Shown: positions 10,384-37,215 of the stretch, in pieces | Position numbering within the stretch: position 1 is the first letter of the stretch | Layout of the letters: each line of letters opens with the position of its first letter | Source of the DNA: Pelagomonas calceolata | Lineage: Eukaryota > Sar > Pelagophyceae > Pelagomonadales > Pelagomonadaceae | Length of the DNA: 64,000 nt | Direction: 5' to 3' | Assembly: GCA_918797485.1 (NCBI GenBank) | Contig: CAKKNE010000005.1 | Location: forward strand, 4,960,001-5,024,000 | The notes under the pieces: generated by a model | Databases searched by the model: none | The model's input: the letters and a program-made list of their open reading frames with translations, nothing else | Told to the model about the DNA's origin: nothing | Made by a program: the position numbers and the translations under genes

Positions 10384-12368
10384 TCAGTTGAGGTCCCGCA
10401 GCGCCGCCTTGACGCGCGCCGCCGCCGCGTCGAGGTCGCGCCGCCGCTCCTCTCTCAGAGTCCGGCGGCGCCGCTCGGCGTACGACCGGGCGTGCGGCGG
10501 CGCCTTCCGCGACTCGGCCTCGAGCAAGTCCCGCTGCACGTTCAGCTCCAGCAGCTTTCTTTCAAGAGGAGCGCGCCGCGCCGCGTGGGCCTCGTCGCGT
10601 GTCGTCGCGAAGGGCGCGCCGTCGCGGGGCGAGAAGGGCGTCGGCGCGCCGGCGAGCCGCGGAGCCGCGGGCTCGGGGCCGACTTGGGGCGGCCGGTAGC
10701 CCGCGGCGTGCTTGCTGTGCTGGGCGGGCGCGAACGCGGCGAGGGGCGTCGGGCCGGCGGCCAACCGCTGAGAGGGGCTTCCGGGAGGCTGATGTGAGTT
10801 TGGGCGAGGCGGCGGCGGCGGCGGCGCGAGGTCCGCCGACGCGCGGAGGCGCGAGGTCCTCACGTCCGCGTCGCGCGGCGGCGCCGCCCGCTCGCTCCGC
10901 AAGCGAGCGATCTCGGCGGCGTTGCGGCGCACCTCCTCGCCGAGCGCGTCGTGGGCCGTCCGGAGATCCGCATGCGCGCGGCGCCAGCCGTCGACGGCCG
11001 CGCGCGCCTCCGCCGCCGCGGCCTCGGCGCGGGCCGCGCGCGCGTCCGCCTCCGCGCGCGCGTGGTCCGCGTCGCGCCGCTGGAGCCCGGCGCGCTCGAG
11101 CGCGCCGGCCGTCGACCTGTGTGGAAATCAAAATTTTACGGCGCGTATCCAGGTCGGCCGCGTGCACCCGACACACTGGTTGATTTCCACACAGCCGTCG
11201 ACGCGACGCGGTCGTCAGCGTCGCGTGCTGACGCCTCGAGTGCCGCGACGCGGCCCTGCAAGGCCTCGACGGCGACGGCGTCGCGGCCGCGCGCGGCGGC
11301 CGCCTCGACCGCGTCGTCGCGGAGCTGATCTATTAAAGTCCGCGCGCGGGCCAGCTCGTCGTTTAACGTGCGCGCCTCGGCCTCGGCGTCGAGCTTTACC
11401 TGGCGGTCGCGCCGCGCCTGGTCTCTCAAAGCGGCCGCCTCGCGCTCGGCGGCGTCGACGCGCCGGCGCAGCGTCTGCAGCTCCGCGTCGCGGTCGCGCG
11501 ACGCGCGCAGCGACTCGCGCGACGCGCGGGGGTTGAACGGCTCCTCGCGCGATGCGCGCGGGTTCGGTTCCGGTTCCGGTTCCGCCGGCGCGGCCGGCGC
11601 CGGCGCCGGCGCCGCGTCCCACGCGGCCGCCCGGCCCGCCTGGCGCACGGCGACGGGCAGCCGCGCGGGGCCGAGGCGCGGCCCCGCGGCGTAGTTTGAC
11701 AGGGGCACGGGACCCGGCCGGTCGTACGCGTCGTCGGGCTCGTAAGGTTTTTGCGTTCGTGGCGGGAATACGTCGCCCAAGCCGCCGGCGTGAGGTACGG
11801 GCGACGGCGGCGGCGAGTTCCGCACGCGCCCGCCCGGCCGGAAGGCCTCGGGCGACGGCGCCGCCGGTTTTTCAATGGAGGGCGACCGCGGCTTCCACAT
11901 CGTGCGGTGGCGCGCCTCCGGCGAGTCCGCCTTGGGCGGCGCCTGCCACGCCTTGGGCGAGGCCGGCGGGCTGTTGGCCACGGGCCCGCCGCTCCGAAAG
12001 GCCTCGGGCGAGGTCACGCCCACGGCCGCGGCGGCGGCGGCGAGCTCCTTGACGACGATGGGCGCCGGCTTCTTCCGCGGTGAGGATGTGGCGACGGGCG
12101 ACGGCGGCGGCGTCTCGTCGAGGTCCACAGGCGGCGGAGGCGTGTCGTTGGCCACGGTGTCCACGAGGCTCGACGCCGTGGCGTAGGCCGCGCGGGCCGT
12201 CGCCGTCAGGGTCTCCGCGATGGTTGGCTGCGCCTCCTCGACGGTCGGCTCGGCGTCGAGCGCGACGACCTCGACAGTGTCGTGCACGTCGTCGTTGTCC
12301 GCTTTTTGAAAGGGCAGGAACTCCGAGTTGCCTTGCAGTTCTCCTTCGTCGCCTTTGTCGTCGGCCAT
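10384..12368 (-). CDS. Large coiled-coil protein interrupted by an introner
   Basis: Exons 12368-11203 and 11116-10384 give 632 residues. The first 300 residues are acidic then Pro/Ser-rich with a repeated SPEAFR.GG.V.NSPP.SP unit. A long coiled coil follows (roughly residues 290-480), rich in A, R, E and D, and the end has a conserved-looking helix (LERKLLELNVQRDLLEAE...RRRRTLREERRRDLDAA). The intron falls inside the coiled coil: unspliced reading stops inside the element, while removing 86 bp (element plus one 8-bp duplication) continues the heptads exactly. A cytoskeletal or centrosomal role is only a guess from the coiled coil. The upstream region has one promoter-motif copy. Confidence 0.75.
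11117..11194 (+). mobile_element. Introner element 1 (78 bp) in the coiled-coil gene
   Basis: Perfect terminal inverted repeats CTGTGTGGAAATCAA / TTGATTTCCACACAG. Perfect 8-bp target duplication CCGTCGAC at 11109-11116 and 11195-11202. On the coding (minus) strand the intron is 11202-11117: the GT comes from the target duplication (GTCGACGG), the AG is the element end (CACACAG). Inserted antisense to the host relative to the other copies. Confidence 0.92.
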
Positions 12369-13689
12369 TTGCGAGGTCCGCGTACGAATGCAAGGGCAAA
12401 CCGTAGGATGCAGCGTTTCTTTTTTGCTGGGACGTAGAGCCTTGGCGTCGCTGTCAGCGCAGCGTATGAGCTGAGAGTATTATTAGTTGACGCAGAAATG
12501 GCGTAACGCAGCAAAACTGAGGGCGCGCGCATAAAACCGCGACTTTGCAAGTTATGCTGCGCGGCTAGCGGCCTGTAAGACACTAGGGGAAACCGCATTA
12601 ATCCATACAATAGGTGTTTAAGCATGCACCCACGCGTGTCCCGTCTCGCCGCCCGTCTCGCGCTTTGCGTCGGCGCAAAAGCCCTCTGAGGCGGCGTCTG
12701 AGAGGCAAAATATCAGCCTAAATAGCGCGCGCTACAGCGCTGCTCCGAAGCTTTGGGCTTCTCCGGGAGCCTATCCAGCGAGGACTGCTCGCCGCTGCGC
12801 TGCGCCAGCTCTCAGCGCGCCGCCGCGGCTCTCCTGCGCCAGCACAGCTGTGTTTGCAGACATGCGCTCTAGTGTAGCGTGCCACGGCCACGAGATGGCC
12901 GACAATAAAAAAAACATGACGCCCGAGTAGCGCCAGAGGCCACACGAAAGTGTGGCCGCAAAAGAAAGAAAAAAAACTCGACGCCAACCAGAGCTGCTGG
13001 CGCCGGCTCCTCTATGTGCAAGGGTGACACGAGAACTGTGACGGCTCGACGACGAGCGGCTACGGGATAAGGCGCCGCGCGCAAGGAAGGAACGGCGGCG
13101 CCGCCACTGCCCACGATCACTTAGTATGTCCGTCCGTGATTCACGCCGCTGGACTTTGCTTCCTCTTGGGTGACAATGTTTACCTGATAACCGGGTGATC
13201 ACGTGGCCGTCGGAAAAGTGGTCGGGCTGAGTGGCGGTGGTCTGCTCCGAAACGTTCTCCTCCGAGGCGCCTCCTCGAGAAAGGACATCTCCGCGGGCCC
13301 GCACACGTGCTCGCAGTGCTCAGGTTAAGGGCACGCCAAGCTCTTCGCGTTCAGTGGATGGTTTCCGCAGAAACCGGATCAAGTCTCGTCCCTGCTGTGA
13401 GGGAACGAGCTGTAAGGAGGATGGGAGAGGAAGGACGGCACGCCTCCTCCAGAGCGCGATGATCGCATCGAGCACGCGGCCGCGGGGTTGTGCGAGATCA
13501 GGAGGGGGGCGCGCGCGGTGCTTGAGACGTGGGCCTGGCATAGAGCGTCGCCGTGGGCTGGTGGTCGGCGACGGTCTTCGCGCCTACGAGCGATTGAGAG
13601 TACTCATGGACGCGGCCTGCGGGGTAAACAAGATCGTGAGCTGAGTTACTGCCGTGCGGCGCACCTCAAATGGCCTCGACGACGTCAGA
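12369..13689. other. Gene-poor region upstream of the minisatellite
   Basis: About 1.3 kb holding the 5' region of the coiled-coil gene and one promoter motif. Several open frames exist, but all are Arg/Ser-rich shadows without recognisable domains. From about 13460 the sequence shows diffuse similarity to the 142-bp repeat unit (for example GCGTCGCCGTG and CATGGACGCGGCC...), suggesting decayed older units. No RNA gene seen. Confidence 0.45.
12564..12586 (-). promoter_or_regulatory. Recurrent promoter motif, copy 4
   Basis: Minus strand reads CTAGTGTCTTAC, AGG, CCGCTAGC: a consensus copy 196 bp upstream of the ATG at 12368 (minus). Confidence 0.7.
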
Positions 13690-15431
13690 CGCCGGCCGCG
13701 CCGTGTTGAACAAGGTCAAGGCGCTTCGAGGGCGGCGTGTTATGTGATCGTGACCTGTACTCGGCGTCGCCGTGAGCAAGGGCGACGTCGGATCTACCAA
13801 GTCGTGATCTAATGCTGATCTCGCGCCTCGACGCGGGCCGCGCCGTCCTGGACCAGGTCAAGGCGCTTCGAGGGCGGCGTGTTATGTGATCGTGACCTGT
13901 ACTCGGCGTCGCCGTGAGCAAGGGCGACGTCGGATCTACCAAGTCGTGATCTAATGCTGATCTCGCGCCTCGACGCGGGCCGCGCCGTCCTGGACCAGGT
14001 CAAGGCGCTTCGAGGGCGGCGTGTTATGTGATCGTGACCTGTACTCGGCGTCGCCGTGAGCAAGGGCGACGTCGGATCTACCAAGTCGTGATCTAATGCT
14101 GATCGCGCTCGACGCTGGGCGCGCCGTCCTGGACCAGGTCAAGGCGCTTCGAGGGCGGCGTGTTATGTGATCGTGACCCGTACTCGGCGTCGCGGTGACC
14201 AAGGGCGACGTCGGATCTACCAAGTCGTGATCTAATGCTGATCTCGCGCCTCGACGCGGGCCGCGCCGTCCTGGACCAGGTCAAGGCGCTTCGAGGGCGG
14301 CGTGTTATGTGATCGTGACCTGTACTCGGCGTCGCCGTGAGCAAGGGCGACGTCGGATCTACCAAGTCGTGATCTAATGCTGATCTCGCGCCTCGACGCG
14401 GGCCGCGCCGTCCTGGACCAGGTCAAGGCGCTTCGAGGGCGGCGTGTTATGTGATCGTGACCCGTACTCGGCGTCGCGGTGACCAAGGGCGACGTCGGAT
14501 CTACCAAGTCGTGATCTAATGCTGATCTCGCGCCTCGACGCGGGCCGCGCCGTCCTGGACCAGGTCAAGGCGCTTCGAGGGCGGCGTGTTATGTGATCGT
14601 GACCTGTACTCGGCGTCGCCGTGAGCAAGGGCGACGTCGGATCTACCAAGTCGTGATCTAATGCTGATCTCGCCTCGGCGGGCCGCGCCGTCCTGGACCA
14701 GGTCAAGGCGCTTCGAGGGCGGCGTGTTATGTGATCGTGACCTGTACTCGGCGTCGCCGTGAGCAAGGGCGACGTCGGATCTACCAAGTCGTGATCTAAT
14801 GCTGATCTCGCGCCTCGACGCGGGCCGCGCCGTCCTGGACCAGGTCAAGGCGCTTCGAGGGCGGCGTGTTATGTGATCGTGACCTGTACTCGGCGTCGCC
14901 GTGAGCAAGGGCGACGTCGGATCTACCAAGTCGTGATCTAATGCTGATCTCGCGCCTCGACGCGGGCCGCGCCGTCCTGGACCAGGTCAAGGCGCTTCGA
15001 GGGCGGCGTGTTATGTGATCGTGACCTGTACTCGGCGTCGCCGTGAGCAAGGGCGACGTCGGATCTACCAAGTCGTGATCTAATGCTGATCTCGCGCCTC
15101 GACGCGGGCCGCGCCGTCCTGGACCAGGTCAAGGCGCTTCGAGGGCGGCGTGTTATGTGATCGTGACCTGTACTCGGCGTCGCCGTGAGCAAGGGCGACG
15201 TCGGATCTACCAAGTCGTGATCTAATGCTGATCTCGCGCCTCGACGCGGGCCGCGCCGTCCTGGACCAGGTCAAGGCGCTTCGAGGGCGGCGTGTTATGT
15301 GATCGTGACCCGTACTCGGCGTCGCGGTGACCAAGGGCGACGTCGGATCTACCAAGTCGTGATCTAATGCTGATCTCGCGCCTCGACGCGGGCCGCGCCG
15401 TCCTGGACCAGGTCAAGGCGCTTCGAGGGCG
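13690..15431. repeat. Minisatellite, 142-bp unit, 11 full and 2 partial copies
   Basis: Near-identical head-to-tail units start at 13817, 13959, 14101, 14240, 14382, 14524, 14666, 14804, 14946, 15088 and 15230, with a partial diverged unit before (13690-13816) and a truncated one after (15372-15431). Period is 142 bp; the units at 14101 and 14666 are 139 and 138 bp. Two linked variants occur: type A (CCTGTACTCGGCGTCGCCGTGAGC) split as CCTGTACTCGGCG + TCGCCGTGAGC, and type B (CCCGTACTC...CGCGGTGACC) at the units starting 14101, 14382 and 15230. Since 142 is not a multiple of 3, the translated minus frames rotate and stop, so this is not a coding repeat. No spacers, so not a CRISPR array. Confidence 0.95.
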
Positions 15432-18400
15432 GCCTGCTCTTTTACCGTTGTGACCACCACTTCAGCATCCCAAGCAAGTTCATTGGTCTCATCTGCCGCC
15501 CAAGGGGTTGAGACAACTTTGTAAGGCATGGAAGTGTCAACCTTCGGCGCGCGCGCCGGCTGCGCGGTCACTTCTACTACATCGGGCGGCGGCTGCTCTT
15601 CTACCGTTGTGGCCACTTCAGCATCCCAAACAAGTTCATTGGTCCCATCTGCCGCCCAAGGCTTTGAGACAACGTTGTAACGCACGGAAGTCGCGCGCGG
15701 CGGCTGCGCCACCAGTTCTTCTACTTCGTGCGGTGGCTGCGGCGGCAACGCGGGCTGCGACGGCTCGACTGCATCAGGGACTGCTACCTCTATCGATGTG
15801 GCCGCGTCGGGCGCCTCCTCAACAATCTCTGGTAATACGGAGTCGCACGGCTCGGTGCACTTCCGACCCCCGTCTGCACAGGTCCAGTGTGCGCCTTCAA
15901 CTACTACGGTGCCTTTCTCGCGGAGGCGCCACTGTTCACACGTGTCGCAACAGGACCATGGCCTGTCCTGTCCTGTATCGTGCCAGTAGCATTTGACCTT
16001 GTTCCCGTCGGCCGCGGTGCGGCCGTTGCCCAGCTGCTGGGCGATCTTCGGCCACTTTCCCCACATGCTGCGGAACTTCTCCTCCAACACGACTATCCTC
16101 CGCTTCTCGTCTTCGGTCAGGGGCGTTTGGTTCGACTGGAGAGACGCGTAGTGTTGCAGGACGTACCCCTGATCCCACTGTATGCCCAGCTCGTTCAAGG
16201 CTTCGGCGATATAGTTCCACGATGCCTTTGCATCAGGACGGAGCTCCTTGGCTTTCTTCACAAGTAATTTGAGGACGTCGTCGCTGCTTAGGTTAGCGAG
16301 GGCTTCTGCATCTGCGCGGGCGGCATCAATAAGTGCGGCCACGTGTGACCTGCGCTGCGCCTCGCGGCCGTCGCCGCGCTCGCTGAACGCCTGCGCTACC
16401 TGCTGCAACACATCGCGGCACTTCTCGAGTACTTCAGCAAGCTCGCGACGCTCACCGTCGCCGTCAAACAGGATCTCATATAATGACTTGTGCTGGGCCT
16501 GGAAGACCCGCTCGACCGCGGCGACCGCGGCAACCTTCTTCGCTTGGTCGTCGGCACACGACTCTACTAATTTGAGAATCGCGTCCGAGGCCAAGGCGCC
16601 GTGCATCGAGACGTCCTTCACGTGGGCCTCGAGCGGCTTCTCGACGCCGAGCGCCTTGAGATCTTCGACAAGAGCTTTGCGCTGCGCCGCAAAGGCCGCG
16701 CCGCCGCCGGCGGCGCAGTGGCCCGACCACTTCTCGACCGACGCACCCAAGGGGATGACGTGCTTCCGGGTGCGGTGGATAATGACCGCGGCAAACTCGT
16801 CTTTGACATGGCGCCGCGCCGTCGCGTGCGGGCCGCTATAAGACGGGTGGTAGCGGAGCTCTACTCTGACCTGTGTGGAAATCAACCAGTGTGTCGGGTG
16901 CACTAAGTCATTTCTCGGCGATGACGCGGCCGTGCTGGACCCGTCAAACGATGAAGAACCGCCACCGCCACGCCATCGAGCAGGCGGCGCGTCGATGGCG
17001 TGGAGGACGACGCCGTAAAATTTTGATTTCCACGCAGACTCCGACGTCGCGGCCGTCCTTGCGGTACACGAGGAATGTTCTCTCCGCGTCGACGGAAGGC
17101 AGCTTGTCGTCGCCGGTGAGGAACCACAGAACATCGCGAACGGCTTCGTCCGCTTCGGTCACCTCGACGCAGATGTCCTCGTCGCCCACGATGCAGTCCA
17201 TGGCATAGGTGTGCTGGTCAATACCGAAGACCTGTATAGGAGATTGTCGATTCCGAGCGTGAAGGCTCGTCGGCGACGTCCAGACGACCGTGCAACCTCC
17301 ACGCCATCGATGCGATCGGAGTTTTGGACTCGGAAGGCGCACCTCGATTATGGTCCCGGGCCATTCCGATTTGCGGATGGCCTCAAACAGGCGGGGCGCG
17401 CCGCGTGCAAGATCTCCCGGCCGATCGGCCGGCTCGAGGACGGCATCGTTACTTCTCGAGGGCTGCATGGTGCTGACATTAAGATTGTGGATGGTGTCGA
17501 ACCACCTGTGCGCACATCAACCAGTGAGTCGGGTGCACGGCGACGACGCGGCCGTGCTTGATAACCCGAGCGGCGAGGGACCCAGATCGCCACGCGTAGA
17601 CGTGGCGTCGATGGCGCGGAGCTCGTCGCGACGGCTCGGCGACGGTTTGATTTGTGCACTGCAAGCCACGCGGCGCGGAGCTTATCAAGGCCGGCCGCGA
17701 CCGCCTCAGCGCGCGACTGGAACTGGTCTCGGGTGAAACCTACCTGAGCTAAGACTGATAAAGCGAGGCGCTCGATGGTCTGGCAGACTCGTTCCGAGCC
17801 ATCATCTGTTCTAATGCGGGCGCAGTTCACGTCCAACAAGTTGGAAGGTGATGCGGCGTCGTCGTCGACTGCGGCCGTACGCAACCAGTGCTCGGCTTCC
17901 GTCAAAGGCTCGGTGTCGGCGCGCGCGCTAATCGCGAGGTCGCGCGCCCAGCCAGCTACTAAAACGCGCTTGCTCTTGCCGGCGCCGAGGGGTAAGGAAT
18001 ACTGGAACTTCTCGTGGGGCTTCTTGTTCGCGTCCTTGACCGCGCCAGCGCGTAGGCTTCGCTCGACCTTCTTGAGGGCCGCGAGCAGGGAGGCTTCCTC
18101 GGCGTCGTCAGTGTCTTCGTAGTAAGACCGGGCGAGGCGCTCCGCGTGCAAGCGGTCGGCCCCGCCGGCGACCGAGAGCTCCACGCACGCGGCCTCGTAC
18201 ACGTCGCGTAGGACTAATACAGCAGCGAGCGCGGGCTCTTCGCCATCGCCGCGGTACTTCCGGAACAGGGGGCCGACTTCGACTTTCGCCACCGTCGCGA
18301 GCCGAGCTAAGCGCCGCGTAAGCCCTGGTACAATCTCCTCGTCCGTGCGCAGCATCTTGGCTTCGGCCGCGCGGGCTTTTGCTACCCGCGCGGCATGATT

Positions 18401-18766: not shown

Positions 18767-19484
18767 GGCGGCGCGCCGACTTTGCTCAGCGGCCTCGACC
18801 GCGCGCGCTAGGCGTCCGTGTATGTCGTAAAAGCGCTAATACAGGCGCGCCCGTAGTTCTTTTCGGCACGGTTCGGCCGGGATATATTTGCAATGAAGTT
18901 CCACAGTGATCGCGACTCAAATTTTGCGACGTGTGGACCATAAATTTGTCTCAACTGCGCCAACGAGGCTGGAAAAACCCGTTTTGATTTTGAGTCCACA
19001 CGAGAGGACAAGCGTGCGTTCACAGGTCCTCGAGCACAGACTCGTCTTTTGATTTGCCTCCAGGGCTTTCCCAAGCTGCTTCTTTGGACCCGATGGTTCC
19101 CGTAAAAAACGTCAATTACCCGATGCAGCGACGCTGGAAGGGCACTCGATGGGTGCAGTGCGCGGCGTCCGCTTTCCGTGCCTTTGTGATCTGTCTTCGT
19201 CTTAGGTCGATGGTGTTGTCATGTTTCCGGAACGGGCGGCGCGTCGTGTCTGCTTCGGCAGCGGTTCGACGAAATACTCCGAATAGCACCACAGACTGCT
19301 CGGACGGCACCCAGGTGATCTGTGTGCTGCAGGAGGGCTCGCAAAAAAGCGGCGGCAAAACCGAGCTAGCGGCAGTAAGACACTAGGCATTAAGCAGCGC
19401 GCAGCGCCTGATAATCTAATAGCCGTCGTCTGAGACCTCAGGAAGGTGGGACCACATTCATTTTACGCCATCGAGGCACAACAA
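18767..19484. other. Upstream region of the SANT/CW gene
   Basis: About 700 bp between the 5' end of the SANT/CW gene and the 3' end of the oxidase gene. A short inverted pair ACTCAAA (18915) / TTTGAGT (18989) bounds an 80-bp AT-richer segment with GTGTGGAC near its left end, reminiscent of an eroded terminal-inverted-repeat element, but no target duplication is visible. One promoter motif lies at 19365. No convincing gene. Confidence 0.4.
19365..19386 (-). promoter_or_regulatory. Recurrent promoter motif, copy 5
   Basis: Minus strand reads CTAGTGTCTTAC, TG, CCGCTAGC. About 600 bp upstream of the SANT/CW ATG at 18766, the most distant copy; the true transcription start of that gene may lie nearer. 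Confidence 0.6.
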
Positions 19485-20903
19485 CTAAGCCCGAAGAAGC
19501 GCCGGCCGGTCGAGCCGGAACGTCTCTAAAGAAAAAGGCAGCTTCACCCCCAGCGCGAGCGCCGCCGCGGCGTCGCCGATGGCCGGGCCCATCTTGAAGG
19601 CGTGGCCCGAGCCGCCGCCCGCCAATATGATAGGCGCGCCCGCGCCAGGAACTTTATCAAGCACGTAGTGGTAGTCCGGCGTCGTCGTGTAGAGGCAGGA
19701 CTCGCTCCGGAAGGGCGTGGCTTCCAGCCCCGGGAAGAAGCTCGCCACGAAGCGTTGGTTCGCTTCGATTATGGAAGGGTCGCCTTGATGATCGTGGCTC
19801 CGCAGCGCCTTCTCATCTAATGTTTGACCGACGTGGTGCGCCGCGACCTTGACGCCCTGTGTCTTGACGATGGGGATGCCGTAGTAGCCCAAATCGCCGA
19901 GGCCGTTGTTAAGATCCGAAATAAAAACGGGCATTCTTTTATAACCGTAGACAGCTTTACTTCCTTTCGGCTTGAAGTAGGACACCGTTTCCCGCGTCAC
20001 GGTCGTGGGTACATGAAGATTGAACCACTTTTTAGCTATTGAGGTCAGCCACGCGCCCGGCGCCACGATACAACTCCGGCCGACGATCCTTTCCTTATTT
20101 CCGAGGCGCACTTCAACAGAATCGGCCCGGCGCTTTACTGAAACAACATCAGAACCCTCCCTCACGTCTACCTTAAGCTTCCGCGCGAGTTCATAAGCTC
20201 TCGCCATCGCGACCTGTGTGGAAATCAAATTTTACGGCGCGTTCGTCGCGTCGTCCTCCACGCTATCGACGCGACGCTTGCTCGATGGCGTGGCGATGCC
20301 GGTTCATCACCACTCGACGGAGCCAGTGCACCCGACACGCTGGTTGATTTCCACACAGATCGCGACGTCGGCGAACAGTACCCCAAAGTCCGGCTGGTAC
20401 AGCGCCGTCGTGTTCTTCGGGGCCGAGAACTGGGGGAAGCGCTCCTTGAGCTTCTTTCTAGATAATTTCTCGTGCGCGAGGCCCCGCTTCCGGTAAATCT
20501 TGGTAAGATCATCTAAACCGCCGTGCGAGTCATAATTTCCACCTTGCCCGGAATAGAGCGAAACGCCGCCCGTGTGGGCCAGCACCTTGCTCGTCGCATC
20601 ATTCAGTTCGCCCCAGTAGGACAGCGACAGGTACATCATGTCGACGTAAATCTCGTCGGCGTACGCGAAGCGGTAGATGCGGCCGTCGCCGTGCGACGAG
20701 CCCCGCGCGTGGCCCTCCGTGTATTTCTCGACGAGGCAGACGGTCCTGTTCTGCCTTGCTGCCGCGATGGCGGACCAGACGCCCATGACGCCTCCTCCCA
20801 CCACTACAACGTCGTACTGCACGGGCTGCGGTTTGCGCAGCCGTTGTGCTGCCAATGCTGCGAGCGCTGCTGCTGCGGCGCCGAGTCGGAGGAGTATATG
20901 CAT
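19485..20903 (-). CDS. FAD-dependent amino-acid/sarcosine oxidase-like enzyme, one introner
   Basis: Exons 20903-20367 and 20213-19485 give 421 residues. The N-terminus is a hydrophobic segment (MHILLRLGAAAAALAALAAQ), then a dinucleotide fold YDVVVVGGGVMGVWSAIAA and a charged end of strand 2 (VCLVEKY), typical of the DAO family. GSSHGDGRIYRFAY matches the FAD-contacting region of monomeric sarcosine/pipecolate oxidases, and the C-terminal ILAGGGSGHAFKMGPAIGDAAAAL matches the second FAD motif. These enzymes oxidise N-methyl or cyclic amino acids, releasing hydrogen peroxide, often in peroxisomes; here the leader suggests membrane or secretory targeting. The intron lies at FAD|VAMARAY, phase 0. 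The substrate is not determined. Confidence 0.87.
20214..20358 (+). mobile_element. Introner element 4 (145 bp) in the oxidase gene
   Basis: Perfect terminal repeats CTGTGTGGAAATCAA / TTGATTTCCACACAG and perfect 8-bp target duplication ATCGCGAC (20206-20213 and 20359-20366). Intron on the coding strand 20366-20214 (153 bp), GT from the duplication (GTCGCGAT), AG from the element end. The element carries the ACGGCG...CACCCGACAC ends and the inverted core (CCACGCTATCGA...TCGATGGCGTGG). Antisense to the host. Confidence 0.93.
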
Positions 20904-21075
20904 TGTCTTGCTTTTGCGCAGCTGATGGCTGGTGTGGCTTTTTGGCTGTGATGGCTGTGGTGGCTTTTTGTTTGGACACAGCTGTGGCAGGCGGCCTCGC
21001 AGCGATCGTGGCAAGTACTGGGCGCGTGAATAGCCCAGCTATTGCAGCTCTTCGGCCGCTCGGCGCAAAGACCGA

Positions 21076-21097
21076 GCTAGCGGCAGATAGACACTAG
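21076..21097 (-). promoter_or_regulatory. Recurrent promoter motif, copy 6
   Basis: Minus strand reads CTAGTGTCTATC, TG, CCGCTAGC (two changes in the left half). Between divergent ATGs at 20903 (minus, 173 bp) and 21262 (plus, 165 bp). Confidence 0.65.
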
Positions 21098-21261
21098 CAG
21101 GCAGCCTTGCAAAGTCCGCAAGACCGGCGTAACCACCATACCACACGCCACACGTGCTGTAATAATTGCCATTCGTTCTCTATTTCGACATGCGTCGCAG
21201 CGCGCCAGACGCGCCTTCCATGAGATAGCATAAAGCAGCCAACCCAACCCAAGACATTAGG

Positions 21262-26440: not shown

Positions 26441-26464
26441 CTAGTGTCTTACTGGGGCGCTAGC
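26441..26464 (+). promoter_or_regulatory. Recurrent promoter motif, copy 8
   Basis: CTAGTGTCTTAC, TGGGG, CGCTAGC: spacer one base longer and the first C of the right half lost. 160 bp upstream of the Hsp110-like ATG at 26624. Confidence 0.65.
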
Positions 26465-26623
26465 TCGATCGATGGACATCGCAGTGATTTAGAGGTCGTA
26501 CCCGTGGGTTCACTGCAACGAGGAAAGCCAGCGTTGGTGCAAGGCATCGCCACGACCACAAAGCTTTGTAACGCGACATCTGAGCCTGCAACCGCACATC
26601 TCAAGCACGAAACTGCAGCAGTC

Positions 26624-28939: not shown

Positions 28940-28963
28940 GGCGTTTTAATATTGGAAGTTTTC

Positions 28964-29281
28964 TTAGTCGTCGGCGGCGTTCTCGGGAAGCGATGGCGTG
29001 CCGCGGGCGCGGAGCGCGGCTCCGAGCGTCACAAGCGAGCGTCGCAAGGATTCATCAATCAACGTTGTGGTCGGGTGCGCACCGCCGAGCACGCGCCGCG
29101 CGGTCGGTTCGATCTCCTCGAGCGTCGCCACGGCCTCGCGGAGGTCGTCGAGCGTGGCGGCGGGGTCCAGGTGGAGCGCATCCGCGTAGAGTGTTGAAGT
29201 TTGTTGGACTTGCAAATCGGGTTCACACCATTTTCGGCCGAAGGAGGACCTGCTGAGTGTTGAGGGTTCTGAGGGACTCAT
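28964..29281 (-). pseudogene. Kinesin-light-chain-type TPR C-terminal remnant
   Basis: The last 80 or so residues (TLDDLREAVATLEEIEPTARRVLGGAHPTTTLIDESLRRSL...) closely parallel the end of the TPR gene at 60474 (TLDDLREAANELEDLAPTALRVLGSAHP...). The first 30 residues have no TPR character and the frame lacks the upstream repeats, so this looks like a 3' remnant. It overlaps the 5' side of the gene at 29395. Confidence 0.5.
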
Positions 29282-29394
29282 CGTATCGCTTTCGACGCCA
29301 GCGACTTAGCCTGTCGCCTGGCGGCGTAGACGCCCGCAAGCCTTTGCCTAAGTGCCCTCTCGACCACGGGCGCCGCGCTACGCAGATAACAATC

Positions 29395-29784
29395 ATGTCA
29401 CAAACCGACGGCGGCAAGACGACGCTGTGCTATATGCACGGCTCGCTGAGCCTTGACGAGGATCAGATCTTCGAGGGCGAGTGGTCGTACGACGACCCGG
29501 CGGAGTGCGACGACGAGCCCGAGGAATCTTGGCTCTTCGAATACAAAGTGGTCGATCAAACGTGCAGTCCAGACGGCAGGACGGAGACAATCACGTTCAG
29601 AGGAACTTTCCTACACAAAGACGGCGTCGCCAAGGACGAATTCGTGCTCCACTGTGACACTATAGATAGCCCGTCTACGTACACGGGCCGCGGCGAATCG
29701 GACTTTGGCGAGTACACGATCGTGGGCGAGTGTATCAATGGAGAACTCGACAGCGCGGAGTTTACCTTCCGGAAGCTTGTGTAG
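29395..29784 (+). CDS. Small acidic protein, paralogue of the domain in the next gene
   Basis: 129 residues from the ATG at 29395. It consists of a single beta-rich domain: an N-terminal strand (TTLCYMHGSLSLDE), EGEWSY, then ITFRGTFLHKDGVAKDEFVLHC and FGEYTIVGECINGELDSAEFTFRKL. The last part aligns with residues about 65-115 of the next gene (LLRGSFEHAGGIADDDLELTIC, FGAYTVVGTVHGDSIQIRKL), so the two arose by duplication. The fold resembles small ligand-binding beta barrels, but I know no matching family. Function unknown. Confidence 0.6.
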   Translation: MSQTDGGKTTLCYMHGSLSLDEDQIFEGEWSYDDPAECDDEPEESWLFEYKVVDQTCSPDGRTETITFRGTFLHKDGVAKDEFVLHCDTIDSPSTYTGRGESDFGEYTIVGECINGELDSAEFTFRKLV

Positions 29785-29925
29785 TCGTCGTCGTCGTCGT
29801 GTTTAAGATAGATGGATATATATTAATTCACGTGCGAGAGAGAGAGGGGAACTATTTCGGTTTTGGGGGGGGCAGGCACCTAGGGAGGGCTATCGGGGGA
29901 GCTATCCCCCGCTTGCTTGCTATGC

Positions 29926-29948
29926 CTAGTGTCTTACAGGCCGCTAGC
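29926..29948 (+). promoter_or_regulatory. Recurrent promoter motif, copy 9
   Basis: Consensus CTAGTGTCTTAC, AGG, CCGCTAGC, 202 bp upstream of the ATG at 30150. The upstream neighbour points the same way, so this copy serves one gene. Confidence 0.7.
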
Positions 29949-30149
29949 ACCGGCAGCAACGCGGTACCGACCCGGGACGGCTCGTGAACACGGGCTCAGA
30001 GCCCCAAAAGACGCACGCAAGAAGTGCAAAGTGCTGCGGCATCATCGCCCCAGCGATAACGGTACTTGGCTGCGCCCGCAGCCGACCTGCTCTCCCGTAA
30101 CACACAGAGAGCAGATAAGCACTGACAGCGCGAGCGGCGCTATTACGAC

Positions 30150-31655
30150 ATGTCGTCACCCGCAGCGCCCGCCGGAAGCAGCACGCCCGCCGACGCGACC
30201 GAAACGGCAACCATCTGCCACCTCGCCGGCACGCTCACAGCGTCGGAGTGCGCCGGCGACTGGTTCTACGCCGCCGAGGGCGAGCGCTGGCCCTTCCGCC
30301 TCGCGGTCCTGGACGAGCGGGACACGGGCGTCGACGAGCGCACGCTGTTACTGAGAGGCTCGTTCGAGCACGCCGGTGGTATTGCCGACGACGACCTCGA
30401 GCTGACGATTTGTAATAATGACGTGTCGGGCTCGGGCAGTTCAAGATTTGGGGCCTACACCGTCGTCGGCACGGTCCACGGAGATTCCATACAAATACGC
30501 AAGCTCAAGAACGTCCTCCCAAAAAAGCGGCGGCGCCGGTCGACGAAGAAAGTGGACGAGGACGCGTCGCGCGAGTTAGATAAACCAAAGAAGCGGAAGA
30601 AGAAGCAGAAGCTCGTGGCGAGAAAGCCGCCGGCCGAGGGCGCCCAGCTGCTAGTCAAGTGGGCCGGCGACGACGGTTCGGATAGGGAGGATGGGCGCTA
30701 TCCCTGTGTATTACGGGGCGGCCAGTTGTATGGGGACTGGGAGGAGCCCGTGCCGTTTGACCCGGACGACGTCGCGACCCGAGTGGAATCAAATTTCGGG
30801 CGCCCCACGCCATCGACGCGACGTGCTTCCGTAGCTGCGTCTGCGCGATGGTGTCGTGATTTCACGCCATCGACGCGACGTTGTCCCCGTGGCCGCGTCG
30901 GCTCGATGGCGTGGAAGTACACGAAGAACCTAACTCACTGGTTGATTTCCACACAGGACGACTGGCGCTACGGCGAGGGCGCCTACAAACAAAGGGCGCT
31001 GGACTTTGTCGCGCGGTTCTGCGCCAAGCTGCCGCCGCCGCCCAAGGAGCCGAAGAAGCGACAAAAACGGGTCGATATACCGCCGGTCGAGGCGATCGGG
31101 GACCTCGTCGCCGAGATGGCGGAGTTCGTGGCCGATAATGCGCCCGAGGATATCCAGAACGCCTACGCGTGTTCGCTGCACCCGGCGGAGTATCTGCGGA
31201 GGTGGGCCCGCGGCGACTCCTTATTGAGACCGCTGCGGGGCCTGAACGTGCAGCACCCCTGGGCGCCGATGCTCCTCGACGGCTCGAAGGTCATCGAGGC
31301 GCGGACGTATGATATAGACGACAAGGGCGGGTTCGGTAATGAGTGGTTCTGGGTCGTCGAGACGCCGGGCAAGCAGCGGCAGCGGGGCCAGCGGGCGCGC
31401 ATCACGGGCTGCGTCAAGTTTTGTCGGGAGGCCGTGCGCTACACGTCCCTCGACCAGTGGCGCGCGGACGAAGATAAGCACCGCATCGCGGCGGGCTCGG
31501 ACTACGACTGGGACGGCCGCGGCGCGATGTTCGGCTGGCGCGTCGAGCGCGTCATGGTGCTCCGCGAGCCGGTGCCGGGCCCGGACCGCAAGGGCACGAT
31601 CAACTCGAAGCCCGTGCCGCGGCTCGTGCCTCGGGACGGCTGGGTCGTCGCCTGA
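30150..31655 (+). CDS. ASCH-domain protein with N-terminal beta domain, one introner
   Basis: Exons 30150-30770 and 30957-31655 give 439 residues. The N-terminal domain (about 20-115) is paralogous to the preceding gene. A Lys/Arg-rich linker follows (KKRRRRSTKKVDEDASREL), then a short chromo/Tudor-like strand region (LLVKWAGDDGSDREDGRYPCVL) where the intron falls, then a helical stretch. The C-terminal ~140 residues look like an ASCH/PUA-like domain: LRGLNVQHPWAPMLLDGSKVIEARTYDI, WFWVVETPG, and RAMFGWRVERVMVL-type end. ASCH domains bind RNA or modified nucleotides and occur in transcription coactivators. The basic linker suggests a nuclear protein. The unspliced frame is also open, so splicing rests on the element signature. 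Confidence 0.68.
   Translation: MSSPAAPAGSSTPADATETATICHLAGTLTASECAGDWFYAAEGERWPFRLAVLDERDTGVDERTLLLRGSFEHAGGIADDDLELTICNNDVSGSGSSRFGAYTVVGTVHGDSIQIRKLKNVLPKKRRRRSTKKVDEDASRELDKPKKRKKKQKLVARKPPAEGAQLLVKWAGDDGSDREDGRYPCVLRGGQLYGDWEEPVPFDPDDVATRVESNFGRPTPSTRRASVAASARWCRDFTPSTRRCPRGRVGSMAWKYTKNLTHWLISTQDDWRYGEGAYKQRALDFVARFCAKLPPPPKEPKKRQKRVDIPPVEAIGDLVAEMAEFVADNAPEDIQNAYACSLHPAEYLRRWARGDSLLRPLRGLNVQHPWAPMLLDGSKVIEARTYDIDDKGGFGNEWFWVVETPGKQRQRGQRARITGCVKFCREAVRYTSLDQWRADEDKHRIAAGSDYDWDGRGAMFGWRVERVMVLREPVPGPDRKGTINSKPVPRLVPRDGWVVA
30771..30956 (+). mobile_element. Introner element 5, diverged, with duplicated core
   Basis: Left end is eroded (GAGTGGAATCAAATTTCGGG), right end intact (CTCACTGGTTGATTTCCACACAG). 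The proposed intron starts at GTCGCGAC and ends ACACAG (186 bp, phase 0, open in frame). The core CACGCCATCGACGCGACG occurs twice inside, so this copy carries an internal tandem duplication. Target duplication is no longer clear (GTCGCGAC versus GACGACTG). Same orientation as the host. Confidence 0.75.
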
Positions 31656-31743
31656 GTAATGTCCTTTTTTGTGGCTCGGGAGATACAACAAAGATCATAT
31701 ACACAACTAGAGTCAGACGCGTGCACGCGACCGCAGGACCTTT

Positions 31744-32149
31744 CTACAAGCTTCGCGTCCGCATCGCGATCGCTCGAGGTTGTACGACGACGCGCCTGCT
31801 GTCGTCGCCGGCGTCTGGTCCGTAGCCGAGGATCGCGGCGCGCAATTCGAGGTCGCACTCGGAGGGCTCCGCGCGATTAAGGCGACGGTTTGCCCTTGTA
31901 AACCGGCCGTCGTGGTGCGACGTCCGGCTCCTCGTCGAGCGCGAACGAGTTGTCGGCCTCGTCGTCCGAGTCGATGCCGTCGTCGTCGCTGTCCGTGTCC
32001 GATTCCGTGGACTGCTCGGCCGCCTCGGCGCGGAGCCGCTCGAGTTTCTCAGCATACTTTTTGGCCTTGTGATGCTTTCCAGCTTTTTCTGCTTGTTTGA
32101 GCTTGCGCTCGTACTGCTCGATTTTTTCGTCAAGATAATCATCACCCAT
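31744..32149 (-). CDS. Small coiled-coil acidic protein, possibly with a 37-bp intron
   Basis: The first frame from ATG 32149 encodes a charged coiled coil (LDEKIEQYERKLKQAEKAGKHHKAKKYAEKLERL...) and an acidic tract, stopping at 31877 after 90 residues. A second minus frame directly downstream (PSECDLELRAAILGYGPDAGDD..., stop at 31744) looks coding. Removing GT...GGAG at 31867-31903 (37 bp) joins them in phase 0 for 122 residues. Such a short intron is unusual, so the 90-residue version remains possible. No family recognised. Confidence 0.5.
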
Positions 32150-32228
32150 GATCGCCCTTGCAATTGATGAGCCGTGAAACAGCCCAGGCGCCTTGTTATC
32201 GATATCAAGCGTGGTGATGCCCTGCTTC

Positions 32229-32251
32229 CTAGTGTCTTACACGACGCTAGC
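32229..32251 (+). promoter_or_regulatory. Recurrent promoter motif, copy 10
   Basis: CTAGTGTCTTAC, ACG, ACGCTAGC. Between divergent ATGs at 32149 (minus, 80 bp) and 32383 (plus, 132 bp). Confidence 0.65.
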
Positions 32252-32382
32252 TGGCGGCGCGCGGGACGCCTGCTCGTCACGGGCGTCCAGCGCGAAAGGT
32301 AGACCGATAAAGGAGGCCTTCTGGACCTCCCGCACTGCCGCAGCTGGATCACGAGGTCAGAAAGGCATTTATGCGGCCATAA

Positions 32383-34566
32383 ATGGCTGCAGAGCAGAGC
32401 AGTGGCAGCAATGCTTCTCCTGCCGAAAGAGCACCGGCCAAAGCTGCGCTATCGATCTTGGGTGCAATAACCGCAGCCCTATTTGCTGTCGCCGTAGCGG
32501 TCTCGCAACAACGGCACGATAATACGCCACGCCTCGACTTGCGCTACTGCGAGGGCGGGCTGCGGCCGCGACCCGCGTTTGCGCTAGCGCAGCCGCGCCG
32601 GTTTGCGCCAGTGCCACCCGCGGACGGCGCGGCGCCGGGCTGCGGCGCGCTACCGCCGGTGCGAGGTGCCTATCCCACCACTCGTAAGCTCGAGGACATC
32701 GTCGCAAGCTGGCCCATCAACGACACGCGCATTCACGCTCCAGTCGGCGGCCTCTGCCGCTTCGACTGGTCGAAATCCGAGGACCGCGTGAAGGCCCTCG
32801 CGTATCGACGGGCCGAGGTGCCCTTCCAGGCGTTCAACGTTCCCTCGCTGGACGCCGCCGTCGACCGGTGGAGCAGCGACGACTACGTAGGGAATATGTG
32901 GCACGGCGCCGCGACCGCGGAAGTTTCAACCTATCCACGCGGCGACTTCGCGCACGGGCCCAATCACTTCATGTTCCACCACGCGGGGAGCTCCGCCCAC
33001 GCACCGACGACCTCACGGAGCACGACGCTCCGGCAGTGGCTGGCGCGAGACGCCGCGGCGACGCCCGAGTACCTCTCGTTCGAGGTGCCGTACGCCCACG
33101 GCGGCGTCGACCGGCGCGGCGGCGGTGCTCGCGGCGAGAGCGTGTTGCACAAAGAGCTGCCGCTGTTCGATGCCGCAGTTCAATCGGATGAGAGCCGCTT
33201 TTTCGCGCCGGGCGAAGAGGACTTCGCGGACGCGCGCTGGCCCCGCGGCATCGTCTGCAAAGGCGGCGACGAAGGTGTAATTGGCGCGGAAGCGCACTGG
33301 GACGCGTCCCGCAACTTCATCGCACAAGTTCGGGGCGCGCGGCGGTTCATACTGGCGGACCCGGAAGAAGCCTGCGCCATGCAATTGTTGCCGCGGGGGC
33401 ACGCTTCGCACCGCCATTCTTCCGTAGATTGGTCGCAGCCTGCTACACAGTGGCCCGCGGAGCTCCGATCGGTCCGGGCGTACGACGTCGTGCAGCGTCC
33501 GGGTGATGTGCTCTATCTACCGCAGTACCACATGCACTACATCATCAGCCTCGATCGAAACCTGCAGTGCAACAGCGTGCGCGGTCGGGACCTGCGCGAA
33601 ACGCCAAAAACGAGGGAGTGCTTACAACTCGGGCCAAATTTCGAGTGCTCGCGGCCACCGACGGCGTTCGAAGTGCCGGTAGCGCTACTCGACGCCGATC
33701 GAGGACTAGTACGCGCCTGCGTCGTTGAGTTTGGCCCTCGGGAAGCGGAGCCCGCGGCCTATCCCATGTTTTCGGACTTGCCGCGTCCGCGGGGCGTGAG
33801 CTGCCGCGTCGTGGCGCTGGACGAACTAGTCGCAGATGCGCGGTGGCGGCTCGGCGGGCAGGGCGGGAGACCGGCGCTTGAGCCGTCGGGATTTGTTTTC
33901 CACCTCTCTCGCTCGGGCTCAACGCTCATCGCGAACTCGTTACAAACAGCACCGAAGGCGCTCGTGTTGTCGGAGCCGGAGATCCTGGCCGAGGTTCTCG
34001 CTCGCGCGCCCTCGCTGCTGAGGGACGTCTTCGAGGTTTTTGGGTCCTCCAACTACCACACGCACATGGTGGTTAAATGGCAAAGTGCCATGGTGGTCCA
34101 CGCGCAGAGACTGGCGGAGATATTCCCCGCGACGCCGTTAATCGTCGCCTACCGAGACCCGGCGGATATCCTCGCGGCGCACCTTTTCGAAGACAAACCG
34201 CCGTGCGCGGCGCCTTATCGGCCCGGAGACAAACTCGGCGAAGCCTCAGCGACGCTTCCGGGGGGCAACGGTGAAGACGTGGGCCGGCGCTGCGTCGCGC
34301 GCCTCGCGGCAACGATGGACGCGGCATTGGCGCTCGAAGACGCGACGTTCGTCGACTATGGCGAGCTTCCGGATGCCATTGACGACATCGCGGCGAGATT
34401 CGGCCTCCCGACCGTAAACGTGTCGCGCGTCGCCGGCGTCGACGCGAAAGCAGGAGGCGCCTACAAGAGTCTTGCCGCGACGAAGCGCGCCGCGCTCCCC
34501 GAGGATCTTTGGGCCTGGGCGGCGCCCCACCTCTCGCCGCGCTACGCCGCGCTGCGCCGTCGGTGA
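32383..34566 (+). CDS. Membrane-anchored JmjC/cupin-like domain fused to a sulfotransferase-like domain
   Basis: 727 residues. A transmembrane helix (about 22-42, AALSILGAITAALFAVAVAV) after a short polar N-terminus suggests a type II Golgi membrane protein. Residues about 150-400 resemble a JmjC/cupin_8 Fe(II)/2-oxoglutarate oxygenase: AHWDASRNF supplies the HxD pair, RRFILADP follows, and PGDVLYLPQYHMHYI supplies the distal His. Residues about 500-720 resemble a sulfotransferase: the PAPS 5'-phosphosulfate loop FHLSRSGSTLIANSL (near 505) and a 3'-phosphate region (PLIVAYRDPADILAAHLF, near 586). The fusion predicts hydroxylation and sulfation of the same secreted or cell-surface substrate. 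Both activities are inferred from motifs. Confidence 0.75.
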   Translation: MAAEQSSGSNASPAERAPAKAALSILGAITAALFAVAVAVSQQRHDNTPRLDLRYCEGGLRPRPAFALAQPRRFAPVPPADGAAPGCGALPPVRGAYPTTRKLEDIVASWPINDTRIHAPVGGLCRFDWSKSEDRVKALAYRRAEVPFQAFNVPSLDAAVDRWSSDDYVGNMWHGAATAEVSTYPRGDFAHGPNHFMFHHAGSSAHAPTTSRSTTLRQWLARDAAATPEYLSFEVPYAHGGVDRRGGGARGESVLHKELPLFDAAVQSDESRFFAPGEEDFADARWPRGIVCKGGDEGVIGAEAHWDASRNFIAQVRGARRFILADPEEACAMQLLPRGHASHRHSSVDWSQPATQWPAELRSVRAYDVVQRPGDVLYLPQYHMHYIISLDRNLQCNSVRGRDLRETPKTRECLQLGPNFECSRPPTAFEVPVALLDADRGLVRACVVEFGPREAEPAAYPMFSDLPRPRGVSCRVVALDELVADARWRLGGQGGRPALEPSGFVFHLSRSGSTLIANSLQTAPKALVLSEPEILAEVLARAPSLLRDVFEVFGSSNYHTHMVVKWQSAMVVHAQRLAEIFPATPLIVAYRDPADILAAHLFEDKPPCAAPYRPGDKLGEASATLPGGNGEDVGRRCVARLAATMDAALALEDATFVDYGELPDAIDDIAARFGLPTVNVSRVAGVDAKAGGAYKSLAATKRAALPEDLWAWAAPHLSPRYAALRRR

Positions 34567-34630
34567 GGCGAAGGAAACTGTTCATAGTAGTGTACATATA
34601 TTTGTTGATTTCAACTGAAACAGACACACA

Positions 34631-35389
34631 TCACTTACGCCGCCGCCGCCGCTTCCCGGAAGGCCGCGCCTCAACTAGCGCCTTGATTTCGTCCCCGTCC
34701 AACCACGAGTCGTCGGCACCTGCATTATATTTCCGCGCCGCCCCAGCCTCAACGGCGCGAGCCGCCGACGCGCCAACGACACCATCAGTGTTGCGAACCC
34801 CGAGCATCGCTGCGAGCGCCGCCGTATCCCCGGGACTCCGCACGCGCCACGCGTCCGGTGAGCCACACGACAGCACCAAGCCGCGCCCGCCATTCGTCAG
34901 GGCCGCCAGGCGCAGCCCCGTCGCCGTCAGGTGCCGCAGGCTCCGCGGCTGCCCGATCGAGTGAGCATAAGACACCTCGAAGGCCGCGCCCCGCTTGATC
35001 GCGACCTCCACGTCCTTACGCGCGACTGAAAAAGGCAGGCGCGCGCCGCAGGCGACAGAGATGAGGTCGACGTCGTTGCATGAGCACGCCGCTCGGAAGG
35101 CGTCGTCCGTCTCCGGCACGGCCGCGACGATGTCAAACGCGTTCAGCACCTTCTGCGGCACGCTCACGCGCGGCGCGTCGAGGCGCACGGTCAGGCGCTT
35201 CAGGAGACGCAGCCGCGGCGTCGTCTTCAGCGTTTCGACGTCGCGCGGTTCGCCCCAGTCGAGCGGTTTTGCATCGCTGGCGTGCGCGGCGTCGCAGAGC
35301 GTTTCAAGCGCCACCGAGGCGTAGCCCAGCGCGTAGGCGCGCTCCGCAGCCGCTACTGAGCCGCAGCGCAGCTCGTGGGCGTCCTGCAT
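34631..35389 (-). CDS. RPP30: RNase P/MRP protein subunit p30 (RPP30/Rpp1)
   Basis: 252 residues from the ATG at 35389. The family forms a TIM-barrel-like subunit of nuclear RNase P and RNase MRP, needed for tRNA 5' processing and rRNA maturation. Diagnostic stretches: LKRLTVRLD, FDIVAAVPETDDAFRAAC, DVDLISVACGARLPFSVARKDVEVAIKRGAAFEVSYAH, and the end GVVGASAARAVEAGAARK. The C-terminus is a basic tail (GKRRRRRK) that likely serves nuclear import. Length is typical. It diverges from the DUF1995 gene with a shared promoter motif. Confidence 0.9.
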   Translation of the reverse strand: MQDAHELRCGSVAAAERAYALGYASVALETLCDAAHASDAKPLDWGEPRDVETLKTTPRLRLLKRLTVRLDAPRVSVPQKVLNAFDIVAAVPETDDAFRAACSCNDVDLISVACGARLPFSVARKDVEVAIKRGAAFEVSYAHSIGQPRSLRHLTATGLRLAALTNGGRGLVLSCGSPDAWRVRSPGDTAALAAMLGVRNTDGVVGASAARAVEAGAARKYNAGADDSWLDGDEIKALVEARPSGKRRRRRK

Positions 35390-35583
35390 TTTCGCTGCGA
35401 CGGCGTCTGCCCTTTGCTGCAGCAATGCTGCTGGCCCGGGCTGGCTGCTGGCTGGCGAGCTGTTTCCGGCAGGCGAAGCTCTTTCGCACTGCGTCGAATA
35501 GTAGTGTGCGCCTCTCTCTGCGCTACCTCTGCCGCTCCTAGGCCGCACCAGCACGTTTTTTGTGAGCCAGAGTCTGGCCGATT

Positions 35584-35606
35584 GCTAGCGGACTGTAAGA
35601 CACTAG
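35584..35606 (-). promoter_or_regulatory. Recurrent promoter motif, copy 11
   Basis: Minus strand reads CTAGTGTCTTAC, AGT, CCGCTAGC. Between divergent ATGs at 35389 (minus, 195 bp) and 35873 (plus, 267 bp). Confidence 0.7.
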
Positions 35607-35872
35607 AAAACAGTGCCGGACGCCGATCCAGCCCTTAATCTCGTCCGTACTGCTGGTACTGCTGGTACTGCTGCATTTCATTATTTGCTCGGTGCGTCAG
35701 CCACACGCCTGCATCACCTCAGACGCCAGGCAGCGCGGCGGGCCATCGGTATCGGGTCTGCCAGCAGTGTGCACCCAGCATTGCCTTTATAGCAGCCTCA
35801 GCTCCCTGCAGAGCTCGAACTGCGATACCTGCAGCTTGCGAAGGTCGCGAACTGCGAAACCTGCAGCTTGCA

Positions 35873-37215
35873 ATGGCCAGCATGATACTGCTGTGCACAC
35901 TCGCAGCGTCAGCGGCAGCATTGGTAGCGCCGCCGGGTCGGACGCAGTTGGCGCCGCGCGCCACCACGCGCCGCACGGCGTTGCCGAGCGACATTGGTCT
36001 CGAGGACGCCTTCGACGGGCTCTTCGACGTGCTCGAGAACGCGTACACCTCGGGCGCCGTCGTGGACTTTACCTCCGCGGCGAGCGCCGCCGCCGACACC
36101 TTTGCAGCCGCTGACCCCGTGGTCCAGGCGGGCGCCGCGGCGGTAGCTTTAGCGGGCGGCGCCGCGTCCGTCTTCCGGCCGCCGCCCAAATTCCCGACGA
36201 TCTACGGGTCGTGGTTCGGCGACAAGATGAGCGCAGACATGCGCGCATGCATTTCTGCCGGTCTGCGGAGCGGCCTCACGGCCATGGAGGTGCGGACCAG
36301 TGCATAAATCAAATTGTCGCGGCATTTCTACTCACTGGTGTTGATTTGCGCACAGGTGCGCACGCAAGCGCTGCCGAACCTCGACGAGGCCAAGTTCGGC
36401 ACCCCCACCAATGAAAAATTTCAGATCGAGTGCGCGCGGAGTTTGGGGTTGTCGAGCGGGCCGACGAAGCCCCAATCTACAGGAAAAGTGGACGCCGGCG
36501 GCCTCCAGAAGTCCGTGAAGCGCTTCGACTCGAACTACATGCTCGTGAAGCGCGACCCGGTCGCCTACGCCAACGTCTGGTGGGCCCAACGAATAGCGCC
36601 GGCATTAGGTTCCAGAAGGAAGATCTGGGTCTTGCTCGCGGAAGGCCGCGTCGACACGTCGGCCTGCTCAAAGCTGCCGCGGAATTTTGTGGTGAAACCG
36701 CTCGAGTCGAAGGACGTCCAGGTCACGTCCAGAGATGCCGTGATTGTCGTGGCGCCCGGCGTGACGCAGTCGTGGAAGATCGGCTACGACCTAGCAACGA
36801 ACGCGGGCGCCCCGGTCGTCTTCCTCAACTCCCAGCTCTCGGAACGGTACTCGCTCGGTGGGCCGCTGGACGACGTCGAGGAGGTCTACTACCTCAAGCC
36901 CATCTCCAAGGGCTTCGTGTATCGGGCCTACCCCGGGGGCTGGCAGTGCATCCCTGCGTGGAAATCAACCAGTGTGTCGGGTGCTCCGTCGAGTGGTGAG
37001 GAACCGGCCGAACGCGCCGTAAAATTTGATTTCCACACAGGTGCATCCTTGACAAGCCGGATGGGACTCAAGAGAAGCTCCAGGAGTACGCCGCGGGGGA
37101 ACGGCCGACGCTCGGCGAGCTCTCGCAACTGACGCGGAGCGTGTCCCAGGAGAAGTTCGGCGCGGCGATGAACGACAAGTTCACGAACGACCCGCGCATG
37201 GGGGGGCGGATGTAA
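35873..37215 (+). CDS. DUF1995 plastid protein, two introners
   Basis: Exons 35873-36289, 36356-36945 and 37041-37215 give 393 residues. The N-terminus is a signal peptide (MASMILLCTLAASAAALVAPP) followed by a basic transit-like stretch, the bipartite leader of complex plastids. The mature part matches DUF1995, found in chloroplast proteins such as LPA3 and plastid adenylate-kinase fusions: RDAVIVVAPGVTQSW, GAPVVFLNSQLSER and EEVYYLKPISKGFVYRAYPGGWQC. Both introns are needed: the first contains an in-frame stop and the second shifts the frame; splicing restores the domain and gives the stop at 37213. A role in photosystem assembly is known for some relatives only. Confidence 0.83.
36298..36355 (+). 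mobile_element. Introner element 6 (58 bp) in the DUF1995 gene
   Basis: Short, diverged copy: left end CAGTGCATAAATCAAATTG, right end GTTGATTTGCGCACAG. Flanks GTGCGGAC (36290-36297) and GTGCGCAC (36356-36363) are an 8-bp duplication with one mismatch. Intron 36290-36355 is 66 bp, phase 0 (GAG | GTG CGC). Same orientation as the host. Confidence 0.85.
36954..37040 (-). mobile_element. Introner element 7 (87 bp) in the DUF1995 gene
   Basis: Ends CTGCGTGGAAATCAA and TTTGATTTCCACACAG; perfect 8-bp duplication GTGCATCC at 36946-36953 and 37041-37048. Intron 36946-37040 is 95 bp, so it shifts frame unless removed; splicing gives TGG CA|G TGC ATC. Inserted antisense to the host, opposite to element 6 in the same gene. 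Confidence 0.93.

Follow-up and report, generated by a model that had tools for sequence, protein, structure and literature searches.

How do short, similar DNA segments come to interrupt several unrelated genes of one genome and still leave their reading frames recoverable? The question is raised by a 64,000-nt stretch of the pelagophyte Pelagomonas calceolata (contig CAKKNE010000005.1, positions 4,960,001 to 5,024,000; hereafter the window), in which a reading made from the letters alone (the sequence-only reading) had recognized seven related elements and proposed that they are introners, short DNA transposons acting as introns by way of their target-site duplications (TSDs). The elements almost certainly represent one non-autonomous DNA transposon family, with terminal inverted repeats (TIRs) CTGTGTGGAAATCAA and a full length of 203 bp, whose sequence points to action as an introner. 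In the proposed mechanism, the family would be moved by a transposase in trans, which would make an 8-bp staggered cut. Each copy is flanked by an 8-bp target duplication, as judged from its sequence, with the exception of the copy at 30771, which has no clear duplication. Whichever way the element lies, its terminal repeat finishes with CAG and so always provides a 3′ splice site; a 5′ splice site is available in the upstream duplication copy wherever the target starts with GT or GC on the coding strand. Taking out the upstream duplication together with the element exactly restores the reading that preceded insertion. The spliceosome would perform this removal, with a branch point that may also be borne by the element, perhaps TTGAT in the 3′ terminal repeat, and insertions into genes that lack GT or GC at the donor position would be lost by selection.

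All seven elements are present in the window, where the terminal repeat (up to three mismatches) has 15 matches against 0.5 expected, 11 of them being ends of the seven elements. Four copies lie in genes on the minus strand. The element at 11117-11194 (78 bp, B end left and A end right) has exact TIRs at both ends and a perfect duplication, CCGTCGAC; its predicted intron, GTCGACGG...CACAG, spans 11117-11202 (86 nt), and excision turns a 447-aa frame into one of 664 aa. Two elements share the next gene. The first, at 16871-17037 (167 bp), has TIRs with 0 and 1 mismatch and a duplication with one mismatch (ACTCTGAC/ACTCCGAC), and its predicted intron, GTCGGAGT...CACAG, covers 16871-17045 (175 nt). 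The second, at 17506-17661 (156 bp), appears older, with diverged TIRs (three mismatches in the left one) and two mismatches in the duplication (CGAACCAC/CAAGCCAC); the predicted intron is GTGGCTTG...GCGCACAG, 17506-17669 (164 nt), and joint excision of both yields a frame of 1,027 aa. The fourth, at 20214-20358 (145 bp), has exact TIRs and a perfect duplication, ATCGCGAC. Its predicted intron, GTCGCGAT...CACAG at 20214-20366 (153 nt), lies in a sarcosine-oxidase-like (DAO) gene whose spliced product gives a full-length match to PF01266 (FAD-dependent oxidoreductase, E 6.4e-42) and aligns with monomeric sarcosine oxidase 1zov straight through the junction, where the alignment has no gap.

The remaining copies lie on the plus strand. 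A short element of 58 bp at 36298-36355 (two mismatches in the right TIR, one in the duplication, GTGCGGAC/GTGCGCAC) and an 87-bp element at 36954-37040 (TIRs with 1 and 0 mismatches, perfect duplication GTGCATCC) occupy the same gene. The predicted introns are GTGCGGAC...GCGCACAG, 36290-36355 (66 nt), and GTGCATCC...CACAG, 36946-37040 (95 nt); after excision of both, a single DUF1995 domain (PF09353) spans the two junctions. The degree of duplication matching at 11117, 20214, 36954, 16871 and 36298 is that described in the sequence-only reading, and its junctions coincide with the predicted introns. Its claim of shared terminal repeats is borne out for the family but needs correction for the copy it placed at 30771, a coordinate that is the GT of a putative upstream duplication (GTCGCGAC). 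The actual element, at 30779-30956, is decayed: its 3′ TIR is exact, its left TIR is degenerate (CCGAGTGGAATCAA), and the right flank, GACGACTG, differs from the duplication at five of eight positions. The corresponding predicted intron, GTCGCGAC...CACAG at 30771-30956, measures 186 nt; since this length is divisible by three and the segment contains no stop, the frame is uninformative there. Restoration of the frame, which had been claimed for all five interrupted genes, is accordingly seen as a longer open frame in four of them (447 to 664, 581 and 495 to 1,027, 248 and 203 to 426, and 274 and 194 to 417 aa). All seven predicted introns have the form GT...CACAG, in keeping with the ACAG end that had been noted on the coding strand. 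A further inverted repeat, CGTGTGGACCATAAAT / ATTTTGAGTCCACACG at 18930-19002 (73 bp in total), looks like a short element with related ends, either decayed or of a different kind.

The genome-wide search with the terminal repeat, which the sequence-only reading had suggested along with a tabulation of duplication length and GT content, covered 32,445,274 bases in 8 contigs. Exact matches number 790 + 772 = 1,562, against none for a reversed-pattern control; with up to one mismatch the counts are 1,261 + 1,255, against 2 for the control. This corresponds to about 1,250 elements, of which the commonest full-length form is 203 bp and many are shorter deletion derivatives. A sample of about 160 loci, all on contig 1, was examined by pairing ends and retaining those pairs whose 8-bp duplication had no more than two mismatches. 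It contains 140 distinct paired elements, those of the window included, with a perfect duplication in 73, one mismatch in 48 and two in 19; when left and right flanks are re-paired at random, 4.8% come within two mismatches. The strand and frame of the flanks were assigned by a codon-usage score trained on the long frames of the window, so that neither duplication nor element entered the assignment. Both flanks score positive for 118 elements, 114 of these are concordant in strand, and in 113 of the 114 the frame is kept once one duplication and the element are removed (one third expected by chance). An earlier set of 125 copies gave 100 of 101 (p ~1e-46 against one third).

On the coding strand, the upstream duplication begins with GT in 84 of 113 elements and with GC in the other 29, no other donor occurring, and the element ends in CAG in all 113, which together with the preserved frame supports the proposed introner mechanism at the sequence level. 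The expectation that the duplication always begins with GT holds for the seven window introns and fails in the larger sample, where 26% of donors are GC. Only 34 of 113 elements show GT or GC at the start of the other duplication end when this is read on the opposite strand. GT or GC is found at one duplication end only in 79 elements, and in 79 of 79 this is the donor end on the coding strand. A terminal CAG is likewise more constant at the acceptor end than at its mirror on the donor side (113 versus 106 of 113, p 0.014). The orientation of the element relative to the gene varies, with the A end upstream in 44 copies and the B end in 29, and a GT or GC donor is present in every copy of both classes. 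Even when elements with weakly coding flanks are included, all 139 that can be scored have GT or GC at one end or the other. Strand-free counts over the 1,562 genomic matches agree with the predictions of the sample: the flank begins with GT in 645 (about 670 predicted) and with GC in 342 (346), and ends in AC or GC in 1,002 (1,016). Since GT/GC tracks the gene and not the orientation of the transposon, it bears the signature of selection for splicing: insertions appear to survive where splicing is possible, a bias due to the gene and not to the transposase.

Because the unselected duplication end shows the preference of the transposase, the selected end can be read as a measure of what the spliceosome demands. 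Relative to the control end, GT is favored over GC at the donor about fivefold (odds ratio 4.7, p 0.0002). At positions +3 to +6 the donor (0.94 of 4) is no closer to the U1 consensus than the control end (0.88), despite a canonical U1: two U1 snRNA genes were found by Rfam (L178:1501-1672 and L179:1501-1678, both slightly below the gathering score), and their 5′ ends read AUACUUACCUG. For introners at least, GT or GC thus seems to be nearly all that a new donor requires. GC donors appeared to have a stronger +3 to +6 than GT donors (p 0.04); the control end differs similarly, and no such effect is claimed. Nor is there a proto-splice site, as AG does not precede the insertion (-2 A 27%, -1 G 29%).

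The exonic twin of the duplication remains in the coding sequence and therefore records the original donor. Six elements have twins that are discordant between T and C at position 2, and in all six the intron carries GT and the exon GC (6:0, p 0.03). The same comparison at positions 3-8 gives 7:6, and its contrast with position 2 is not significant (p 0.11). These counts are suggestive of GC donors maturing to GT after insertion, to which a T-to-C bias in exons is the alternative account. Across positions 3-8, intronic copies show no significant movement toward the U1 consensus (17 versus 12). As a fossil of the donor, the exonic twin allows splice-site evolution after the birth of an intron to be polarized without an outgroup. 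A wider synthesis can be advanced only as a tentative and rather unlikely proposal: a new intron would require next to nothing of a 5′ splice site except GT or GC, the introner would carry the remaining recognition in its 3′ module and inverted-repeat stem, U1 pairing would hardly select donors, and the twin's preservation of the original donor would make the GC-to-GT change observable.

The same elements could also be spliced in another way, in which the inverted-repeat stem of the intron RNA, and not pairing with U1, presents the donor, the stem having its base at the acceptor and 8 nt away from the donor. The indifference of +3 to +6 to a canonical U1 would fit such an arrangement, and the two ends of a 203-nt element pair with each other over 15 bp (z -3.5). 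We nonetheless regard it as improbable: among 97 single changes in the terminal repeat there is no compensatory change, several copies that look spliceable have a ruined 5′ terminal repeat (30771, 17506), and weak donors may be general among the introns of this genome. A second alternative takes the copies for ordinary miniature inverted-repeat transposable elements (MITEs) that interrupt genes and are not spliced, with GT/GC reflecting the target preference of the transposase. Such a preference does exist, in that the target is weakly palindromic beyond the splice dinucleotide (G-Y-C-N-N-G-R-C), position 1 G being mirrored by position 8 C (44%) and position 3 C (50%) by position 6 G (41%), and the non-donor end begins with GT or GC (34 of 113) more often than base composition predicts. 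A symmetric preference is blind to the coding strand, however, and is already refuted by the 79 one-sided cases; GT/GC stays with the gene while the element turns, and in most copies retention would disrupt the frame, which leaves this account barely credible. Multiplication through RNA by reverse splicing, as proposed for fungal introner-like elements, would explain copies that lie within genes and have spliceable ends, but it would give the sense orientation only, and the 8-bp target duplications, TIRs and both A/B orientations are marks of DNA transposition that make it extremely unlikely.

Several observations weigh against the introner interpretation favored here. The case for splicing is drawn from sequence and from protein homology across the junctions in the DAO and DUF1995 genes. 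For about one fifth of copies the coding signal of the flanks is too weak for assignment, and 10 of 113 introns, like that at 30771, leave an open frame if retained. No pair of empty and occupied alleles was found: at 14 of 14 loci checked in two terminal duplications, both copies carry the element. These near-identical chromosome-end duplications join contigs 1 and 5, which share the examined loci of their first 362 kb at almost identical positions (97-100% identity), while contig 3 (near 163,700) and contig 6 (near 3,745,700) have one locus in common; because introner loci are shared in this way, repeat counts are slightly inflated. Finally, searches of the genome for hAT, Merlin, KDZ, P-element and MULE transposases found no autonomous partner. 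PF12762 and PF10551 (Merlin and MULE searches) had no match in the genome, and neither had PF21787 and PF18758 (P-element RNase H domain, KDZ), two profiles that also matched no control genome. Along the 5-7 kb traced from several terminal repeats that had no obvious partner, no second intact end was met at a transposase-sized distance. As to viral transfer, 2.9 million viral contigs contained no match to any of three exact patterns.

Two apparently complete hAT transposons are present in the genome, with intact terminal repeats and long transposase frames of 721 and 832 codons. One spans 3,651 bp (L171:4250-7900; ends CAGGGCAGCAGAAG, exact 8-bp duplication TTGCTCGC) and the other 2,869 bp (L172:4022-6890; ends CTAGGTTGCCA, exact 8-bp duplication ACACTCGG). 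They were rejected as partners on account of their different ends (CAGGGCAGCAG and CTAGGTTGCCA). The consensus of hAT terminal repeats begins YARNG. Like the Pelagomonas element, hAT-type MITEs have an 8-bp target duplication and a terminal repeat of the form CNGNG, and some Pelagomonas copies read CAGTG. The main Pelagomonas repeat is CTGTG and not YARNG; at the donor-side end C, G and G occupy positions 1, 3 and 5 without exception, and position 2 is mostly T.

The closest known counterpart is found in the sister pelagophyte Aureococcus anophagefferens (Huff, Zilberman and Roy 2016, Nature 538:533, as presented in PMC9481584, PMC10228655 and PMC7789003). Its introners are likewise described as non-autonomous DNA transposons with TIRs, direct repeats of constant length and canonical splice motifs, inserted in both orientations with co-opted splice sites (PMC10228655); the likeness is drawn from these descriptions. 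The introners of Symbiodinium microadriaticum (PMC9860276, Fig. 2B) also have TIRs, with a duplication of 4 bp as opposed to 8 bp in Pelagomonas. Those of Amoebophrya (PMC7789003) share inverted repeats at the intron ends, direct repeats at the borders and a predicted RNA hairpin, but differ in having non-canonical splice sites and variable repeats, with U1 not found, where Pelagomonas has GT/GC-AG introns and a canonical U1. Gozashti et al. 2022 include the mechanism among their modes, and in their study GC donors make up 0-50% among introner families.

For P. calceolata RCC100 itself, PMC9481584 describes six nuclear contigs (32.4 Mb, 63% GC) plus plastid and mitochondrion, with near-identical duplications between contigs 1/5 and 3/6. 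It also reports an intron-length peak near 210 bp, called there the length of Aureococcus introner elements, which agrees with a 203-bp element plus an 8-bp duplication (211). The main text of that paper offers this peak only, and no terminal repeats, duplication, donor statistics or copy number. Its figures of 16,667 genes at 0.45 introns each imply about 7,500 introns, against which the introner copies number about 1,250. The introner mechanism is thus already known from Aureococcus, and Pelagomonas introners had been hinted at in print; with about 1,250 copies, the family makes the mechanism measurable. At the level of sequence, the family shows the features by which introners are recognized: many similar introns at unrelated gene positions, TSDs with TIRs, one splice site borne by the element and the other co-opted from the duplication, and a preserved frame. 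It gives the pelagophytes a second and very clean example of intron creation en masse by a transposon, and provides a natural experiment on the demands and the evolution of splice sites.

Two other features of the window deserve mention. Positions 13688-15433 hold about 12 tandem copies of a 142-bp GC-rich unit that are 97% alike, an array adjoining the end of the minus-strand frame 15415-17158. The motif GCTAGCGGCnnGTAAGACACTAG recurs across the window in both orientations; searched as TAAGACACTAG with at most one mismatch, it has 15 matches in 64 kb against 0.2 expected, at 4588, 7628, 9308, 12576, 19376, 23586, 26441, 29926, 32229, 35596, 47703, 54317, 62041, 62135 and 63241. Most occurrences precede long open reading frames by 10-250 bp, and the motif resembles a core promoter or transcript-start element.
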